Part shown: positions 33,427 through 35,682 of the stretch, one piece after another
How the letters are laid out: every line of letters begins with the position of its first letter
Numbering within the stretch: the stretch's first letter is position 1
NCBI GenBank assembly: GCA_011051615.1
Contig: DRKU01000111.1
Location: 1-35,682, forward strand
Direction of reading: 5' to 3'
Length of the DNA: 35,682 bases
Source of the DNA: Gammaproteobacteria bacterium
GTDB taxonomy: Bacteria; Pseudomonadota; Gammaproteobacteria; CAMYNG01
Made by a program: the position numbers and the translations under genes
Notes under the pieces: generated by a model
The model's database searches: none
Seen by the model: only the letters and a program-made list of their open reading frames with translations
Told to the model about the DNA's origin: nothing

Positions 33427-34923
33427 ATGTGGGTTATGAGTCCCCGCCCCGCTCACGACGCCGTCCTCGCCATCGACCAGGGTGGCCACAGCACCCGTTG
33501 CCTCGCCTTCGATGCATGTGGTCGCCTGCTGGCAGAGCACCGCGAGGCGGTCAGTGAGACGCGCCCCGCGCCCGGCTTCGTGGAGCAGGATCCCGCGGCC
33601 CTGCTCGCCTCCCTGCATGCCACCGTCGATACCGTGTTCACCCAACTGGCCGAGCGAGACATCACGGTCTGCGCAGTGGGGCTGGCGACCCAACGCTCCA
33701 GCCTGTGCTGCTGGCACCGCGACACCGGTGCCGCCCTGAGCCCGGTGATCAGCTGGCAGGACACACGCAACCGCGAACTGTGCGATGCGCTACAGGCGCA
33801 CGCGGAGGACATCCACGCACGCACGGGGCTCATGCTCTCGCCCCACTACGGCGCGAGCAAGTTGCGCTGGCTGCTGGATCACCTGCCGTCGCTGGAAGCG
33901 GCCCACGCAGAGGGGAAACTGTGCGCCGGGCCTTTGGCCAGCTTCCTGCTCGCGCGGCTGCTGAGAAACACGCCCTGCGTGGCCGATCCCACCAATGCCG
34001 CGCGCACCCTGCTGCTCAATCGCGAGACGCTGGACTGGGACAGCCACCTGCTGGCACTCTTCAGGCTGTCCGCCGACATCCTGCCACGGGTGGTAAACAA
34101 TGTGGCAGACTTTGGCGCCCTGCCTGTGGGCCACGCAGACCTGCCACTGCGACTGTGTATCGGCGATCAATCGGCGGCGGTCTTCGCCTGGGGTGAACCA
34201 CGCACCGACACCGTATGCCTCAACATCGGCACCGGCGCCTTCGTGCTCCTGCCCTGTGACCGCGCACCCACCGACACCGACGGCCTGCTCAACAGCACCC
34301 TGGTGCGGACAGCGCACATTCACCTGCATGCGCTGGAAGGCACCATCAACGGAGCGGCCAGCGCACTGGACTGGCTGGCGGCGCGCCATGACACCGACAG
34401 CGGCAAGTTGATCGCGGCCCTGCCGGGCTGGCTCGCCGAGGCGACCAACCCGCCCCTGTTCCTCAACGGGATCTCGGGACTGGCCGCACCCTGGTGGCGG
34501 GCCGACTTCACATCACGCTTCGCAGGTAGTGGATCGGAAAGTTCGCTGGCAGGCGAGGCCGTCGCCGTGGTGGAGAGTATCGTCTTTCTTGCCTGGACCA
34601 TCATCCGGCGCATGCAGGCACTGGGACACGGCCCGCGTGCCATCCGCGTCAGCGGCGGACTCGGACGCCTCGATGGCCTGTGCCAGCGCCTCGCCGATCT
34701 CGGTGGCCTGCCAGTGACACGCCCCACTGAATGCGAAGCCACTGCGCGCGGCAGCGCCTGGCTGCTGTGGCAACACGGTCCGGGCGAACAGGCGCTGACA
34801 GAGACGGACTGGCGCATAACAGAGAGCACGGAGGAATTTATACCGCAGGAAAATCCGCCGCTACACGGGCGTTACCGGCGTTGGTCAATGGAGATGGACA
34901 AGGCGCTGGAAAATCCGGCCTGA
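33427..34923 (+). CDS. FGGY-family carbohydrate kinase (glycerol kinase-like)
   Basis: AVLAIDQGGHSTRCLAFD, VGLATQRSSLCCWHRDTGAALSPVISWQDTR, GDQSAAVFAWG, RVSGGLGRLDGLCQRLADL; alternative ATG at 33436. Confidence 0.92.
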   Translation: MWVMSPRPAHDAVLAIDQGGHSTRCLAFDACGRLLAEHREAVSETRPAPGFVEQDPAALLASLHATVDTVFTQLAERDITVCAVGLATQRSSLCCWHRDTGAALSPVISWQDTRNRELCDALQAHAEDIHARTGLMLSPHYGASKLRWLLDHLPSLEAAHAEGKLCAGPLASFLLARLLRNTPCVADPTNAARTLLLNRETLDWDSHLLALFRLSADILPRVVNNVADFGALPVGHADLPLRLCIGDQSAAVFAWGEPRTDTVCLNIGTGAFVLLPCDRAPTDTDGLLNSTLVRTAHIHLHALEGTINGAASALDWLAARHDTDSGKLIAALPGWLAEATNPPLFLNGISGLAAPWWRADFTSRFAGSGSESSLAGEAVAVVESIVFLAWTIIRRMQALGHGPRAIRVSGGLGRLDGLCQRLADLGGLPVTRPTECEATARGSAWLLWQHGPGEQALTETDWRITESTEEFIPQENPPLHGRYRRWSMEMDKALENPA

Positions 34924-34937
34924 TTGCCGGCAAAAAA

Positions 34938-35379
34938 TCAGCCTTCTTCATCCTTACGGTACGGGGGCGTAGTGTGTCCGTAGCGATGCGCCAGAACCGC
35001 CAGCGTAACAATGGCAATATACAAAGACATGCGCACCGGCAGCTTACCGGAGTCAAGATACATCGCAACCATGGCCAGCACTTCCAGGTAAATGAACAGA
35101 AGCAGCAGGTCCGCCAGACGCACCGTCCTGGCTTCTATCATGACCTTGATCTCGATACCAACGGCTATAGCTCCTATCATGGGGATTGAGTTATCAACCC
35201 CAATAACATGCCCACCAAGCACTAAACTTGCAATCTCCGTCACCTTTCCATCACCACAGCCTACATCCGGGATTCTTTCTGTCCAGGAAAGTGACAATTT
35301 ACCAACTAAGTTCCATGGCCCATTGTTGGGCTTTGAAATTTTTCTCATAATCTTCTGCATTCCAGTTATATGCACTCAT
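34938..35379 (-). pseudogene. Frameshifted methyltransferase 5' remnant fused in frame to C-terminal part of a PsiE-family protein
   Basis: Frame 1 from ATG 35379: MSAYNWNAEDYEKNFKAQQWAMELSW* (stop at 35299); frame 2 continues VGKLSLSWTERIPDVGCGDGKVTEIASLVLGGHVIGVDNSIPMIG then IAVGIEIKVMIEARTVRLADLLLLFIYLEVLAMVAMYLDSGKLPVRMSLYIAIVTLAVLAHRYGH (PsiE-like). Confidence 0.75.
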
Positions 35380-35391
35380 GCTTCTCTTTTC

Positions 35392-35466
35392 GCATAACGA
35401 TTGAAATAACCGGCGCGCGTTAGCGCGTCCGGTGCCGAAGGCGCGAAGTTGATTGACTTGTTATAA
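35392..35466 (-). other. attC-like integron recombination site
   Basis: Minus strand begins TTATAAC(AAGTCAATC...) and ends (...TTTCAATC)GTTATGC; ends are near-complementary, with internal CCGGACGCGC-TAAC-GCGCGCCGG hairpin; sits between two minus-strand short ORFs. Confidence 0.72.
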
Positions 35467-35482
35467 GGCGCCTTCTCCACTG

Positions 35483-35682
35483 CTAACCATTTCTATTCAT
35501 TTCTTTCGCTCGATCGTAGCAAGCACCGCACAACAACGTTACACCAGCAAACTCCTCAGACTCATCGGTCCATTCGCCGCCAGTACTATTTACTTTATCT
35601 TCGCAGGCATCACACCATGAATCTGGGCGGGCGTTTCCCGGTTCCGGCTCTGCGGACCAGAAGCCTCGTGGCTCACCATCGC
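35483..35682 (-). CDS. C-terminal 65 aa of a Cys-pair protein, 5' end outside window (integron cassette ORF)
   Basis: Minus-strand open frame: DGEPRGFWSAEPEPGNARPDSWCDACEDKVNSTGGEWTDESEEFAGVTLLCGACYDRAKEMNRNG*; stop 16 bp before the attC-like site. Confidence 0.7.
   Translation of the reverse strand, partial: DGEPRGFWSAEPEPGNARPDSWCDACEDKVNSTGGEWTDESEEFAGVTLLCGACYDRAKEMNRNG

Follow-up and report, generated by a model that had tools for sequence, protein, structure and literature searches.

Does the right end of this contig carry a new gene born by fusion, or the debris of an integron? The window, that is the whole stretch of DNA that was analysed, is the entire contig C111 (35,682 bp) of a genome (G000) available in 245 contigs and 87.5% complete. 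Read on the minus strand from right to left, its end opens with a small cassette gene that the contig boundary truncates; next come an attC site, a methyltransferase starting at 35379 and psiE sequence that extends to 34938. A convergent kinase gene has its stop 14 bp beyond the psiE stop. An initial annotation had described here a 145-aa open chimeric frame running from methyltransferase into PsiE, and had hesitated between decay and a nascent fusion gene. Translations give this frame at 34938-35375, and each of its halves is recognised. We propose that a chromosomal integron is very probably decaying here at its distal end, by gene decay of the usual sort, and that no new fusion protein has arisen. 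The features on which this reading is based are the following:

33427-34923, plus strand: FGGY-type carbohydrate kinase gene (ORF of 498 aa, homologues in G002, G003 and G005); chromosomal flank, convergent with the psiE remnant.
34938-35171, minus strand: psiE remnant that lacks about 28 residues internally as well as the N-terminal third (PF06146, E 2e-9; alignment to 13 relatives).
34938-35375, minus strand: 145-aa chimeric open frame with a GTG start (ORF list), judged a by-product of decay.
34989-35006, minus strand: scar of the in-frame internal psiE deletion, TLA joined to VLA (alignment gap).
35163-35180, minus strand: methyltransferase/psiE junction, uncertain within this stretch (end of methyltransferase similarity at 35175, start of psiE similarity).
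35175-35379, minus strand: class I SAM-dependent methyltransferase cassette, N-terminal part; 3' part and attC absent (translations, homologues).
35302-35310, minus strand: frame change inside the methyltransferase (translations, G126 comparison).
35392-35469, minus strand: attC of the preceding cassette, terminating in GTTATGC (similarity to plasmid integron attCs, boundary comparison).
35483-35680, minus strand: preceding cassette gene for a small CxxC-motif protein, cut by the contig end (ORF list; no significant Pfam family).

The attC at 35392-35469 shares 82-92% identity with attC regions from integrons on plasmids. One of these plasmid matches separates fosC2 from blaIMP-34, and the cassette after it begins at a position equivalent to that of the methyltransferase here. 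Nothing resembling the attC/cassette stretch was found in E. coli genomes. Folding of the attC predicted a hairpin core, with the R boxes unpaired in the minimum-energy fold (z of -1.6 and -1.8). A related methyltransferase in genome G126 is also located behind an attC, which is unrelated to that of the window, and the two DNA sequences are similar from exactly GTTATGC, the recombination point, onward and dissimilar upstream. Such a shared boundary behind different attCs is expected if one cassette entered two arrays by site-specific recombination, each time after a different cassette. The cassette boundary that had been placed right after an attC-like site is thus found where it was proposed, and the methyltransferase has the sequence signature of a true integron gene cassette. 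As in the known unit made of an ORF plus attC, the ORF begins at the attC recombination point, a few bases past the preceding attC. In contrast with this unit, it has neither its own 3' attC nor the 3' part of the gene: the sequence enters psiE, then the kinase, without any attC, in agreement with the loss of the cassette 3' end noted earlier. The protein of the preceding cassette displays two CxxC motifs, WCDAC and LCGAC, and belongs to no recognised family.

Translation of the methyltransferase from 35379 in a first frame gives MSAYNWNAEDYEKNFKAQQWAMEL. A second frame carries on the same methyltransferase (KLSLSWTERIPDVGCGDGKVTEIASLVLGGHVIGVDNSIPMI), followed by PsiE-like sequence up to the stop at 34938. 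The frame shift, previously assigned near 35310, falls at about 35302-35310, past which the second frame reads through DVGCGDGKVTEIASLVLGGHVIGVDNSIPMI. Similarity to methyltransferases, including the SAM-binding motif, ends at about 35175. Residues 34-70 or so of the chimeric frame gave weak Pfam matches to class I methyltransferases (the best, with E 1e-3, does not reach the curated cut-off), and the assignment is made firmer by intact homologues, 53-57% identical, retrieved when 369 genomes of the class were searched. The same search provided the closer copy in G126, 71% identical over 35 residues. This G126 copy (contig C1, L077:1480-1605) is itself broken after about 34 codons by an unrelated sequence resembling an insertion element. 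A comparison of the methyltransferase piece with genome contigs yielded one weak and unconvincing match in a Planctomycetota genome. The window copy shares with class I SAM-dependent methyltransferases (Methyltransf_25/11) the WNAEDY start, the DVGCGDGK SAM-binding motif and the level of identity given above, but it carries a frame shift and nothing of the SAM-binding fold remains beyond the second strand. Instead of a complete catalytic domain in a single frame, it comprises two frames and ends after the GVDNS motif. A programmed frame shift was considered and set aside, since the G126 relative is single-framed up to its interruption and the window gene is truncated anyway.

The other half of the frame is a damaged psiE. 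Residues 82-126 match positions 40-84 of the 122-position PsiE profile (PF06146) with an E value of 2e-9 in Pfam; the profile match covers these positions and not the full-length domain. The alignment with 13 homologues, including the intact chromosomal psiE of G003 and G004 from the same family, showed that the N-terminal third is absent, as expected from the proposed loss of the psiE 5' end. It also revealed in the remnant a gap of about 28 residues from YIAIV.LA to VLA.RYGH, a segment that all 13 homologues possess. In several relatives this segment is flanked by similar LA-coding stretches, and an internal deletion between short repeats is plausible. This second lesion of psiE and the intI deletion described below were both missed by the initial annotation. 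The remnant retains the core segment LADLLLLFIYLEVLAMVAMYLDSGKLPVR and the C-terminal RYGH..PY motif of the PsiE family, and differs from its members by these two losses and by the foreign sequence fused onto it. Differences between the surviving block and G003 psiE amount to 12, 4 and 36 by codon position, compared with 10, 4 and 34 between the intact genes of G003 and G004. The block diverges like an intact gene, from which we conclude that the breakage is recent relative to the divergence of the gene.

The integron integrase gene of the genome is damaged as well. The congener G001 possesses an intact intI (C223:212-1192) beside kdsB, lpxK and msbA. The orthologous contig of G000, C68, is 81% identical to G001 over 8 kb, and its intI (L067:1-331) has kept the first 50 codons or so and the 3' end, about 0.7 kb being gone. 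The deletion ends at a 10-bp direct repeat, CG(C/T)CACCCGC, followed by a tandem duplication of about 40 bp. Judged from these sequences, the integron integrase gene of the genome is a deletion pseudogene. A search for an intact intI in G000, whose 87.5% completeness means that a second intI could be missing, returned only the deleted copy at C68:1-331; the other hits fall below the family cut-off and belong to ordinary tyrosine recombinases. Since its intI is broken, this integron has probably lost the ability to mobilise cassettes through its own enzyme. The array probably joins the right end of C111 to the left end of C68, a linkage that we infer and that is not assembled. Between the intI remnant and kdsB (L067, about 350-700), several short repeats similar to TCGCGCCGGGGCGGCGCTCCTGC resemble a dispersed palindromic repeat family.

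Loss of integrase activity is frequent among integrons (PMC2426708; PMC3510236): nearly one third of intI genes were pseudogenes in one survey (PMC2426708), and active integrases can cost fitness, a cost that inactivation relieves (PMC3510236). The present case resembles the decaying chromosomal 'pseudo-integrons' with inactivated intI (Nemergut et al. 2008, PMC2426708) by the major deletion in intI, the persistence of cassettes and the existence of a near relative with an intact orthologue. It differs from them in that decay also hits the distal cassette and the neighbouring host gene, and in that the array itself is unassembled.

The two halves of the chimera are recognised independently of one another, and the GC content shifts at the switch, from 0.43 in the methyltransferase part to 0.54 in the psiE part; both observations indicate that the chimera is more than chance. 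The switch itself, formerly placed at about 35180-35190, is confirmed, but it lies slightly to the left, within 35163-35180. An Rfam search gave no relevant match. An assembly or sequencing artefact could in principle have created the join or the frame shift: 0.5 kb separates the locus from the end of its contig, the genome is fragmented and incomplete, cassette arrays are difficult to assemble, and a further break occurs at the start of C68. However, the 442-bp stretch is single-copy in the genome and contains no repeat at the join that could mislead an assembler, the inner part of C111 is collinear with G001 at about 81% identity, and the intI deletion ends at short repeats, which is typical of real deletions. 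An artefact is therefore improbable.

The frame might alternatively be a nascent fusion gene, its 145 aa being produced as a novel small membrane protein under selection, given that 145 codons stay open across two joins and that the psiE deletion is in frame. However, by our own estimate two joins would both be in frame by chance in about 1 case out of 9, the remainder of the frame being open by descent. The openness of the frame is thus explained by two halves that come from coding frames and were joined in register by chance, without any need for selection. In addition, the first 22 codons or so correspond to the beginning of the methyltransferase in the wrong frame, the methyltransferase has lost everything past the SAM-binding motif, and PsiE has lost the first and part of the later membrane segments. 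No full-length relative of the chimera, and hence no intact homologue of the same architecture, was found among the plasmids, phages and class genomes searched, and both halves were matched together in no genome but G000 where both were searched. These data, together with the deletion of intI, retain the decay half of the earlier alternative and leave the fusion half highly unlikely.

Intact psiE had been expected next to the FGGY kinase in relatives. The kinase homologues of G002, G003 and G005 are 46-56% identical to that of the window, and none of these genomes has an intact psiE beside it. The 3' neighbour of the kinase in G003 and G005, and as a fragment in G002, is a convergent GlpD-like oxidoreductase, and the psiE of G003 and G004 is at another place. 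On the evidence of these genomes, the kinase-psiE order is not ancestral in the family, and this expectation failed. In relatives (L063, L091) the kinase lies tail to tail with the GlpD-like gene, which is followed by a glycerophosphodiesterase-like gene. The GlpD-like gene of G000 is on a separate contig, C128. G001, which is 98% complete, has only the longer psiE paralogue, and its contig C27 ends just short of the kinase. An intact cassette adjoining an intact psiE, as the parents of the deletion would have had, was found in no genome examined. That psiE was a last gene cassette deprived of its attC, both remnants being cassette-borne, would suit its cassette orientation and its separation from the kinase in relatives, but is hardly credible with only 14 bp and no attC between the psiE and kinase stops and with chromosomal genes of the same family as closest homologues.

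We thus favour stepwise decay at the distal end of the integron, since lesions are found at both of its ends. The methyltransferase cassette would have been captured by attC recombination, as supported by the identical boundary in G126. A later deletion, deduced from the missing parts, would have removed the cassette 3' part with its attC and the 5' part of the neighbouring psiE. A separate deletion of about 28 codons inside psiE and the frame shift that broke the methyltransferase, both visible directly against relatives, have added to the damage at this end, and at the other end comparison with G001 shows that short direct repeats flank the loss of about 0.7 kb from intI. The 145-aa frame is unlikely to make a working protein; that it is expressed as a small membrane protein with a SAM-binding remnant, a new gene arising from integron erosion, is barely conceivable.

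Every piece of this decay is of a known kind, and our search of the literature on decay at array ends returned general integron papers only. In practical terms, the locus is a warning against annotating chimeric open frames such as 34938-35375 as fusion genes. It offers a compact snapshot of integron decay, combining a repeat-flanked intI deletion, a distal cassette without attC and erosion into the adjacent host gene.
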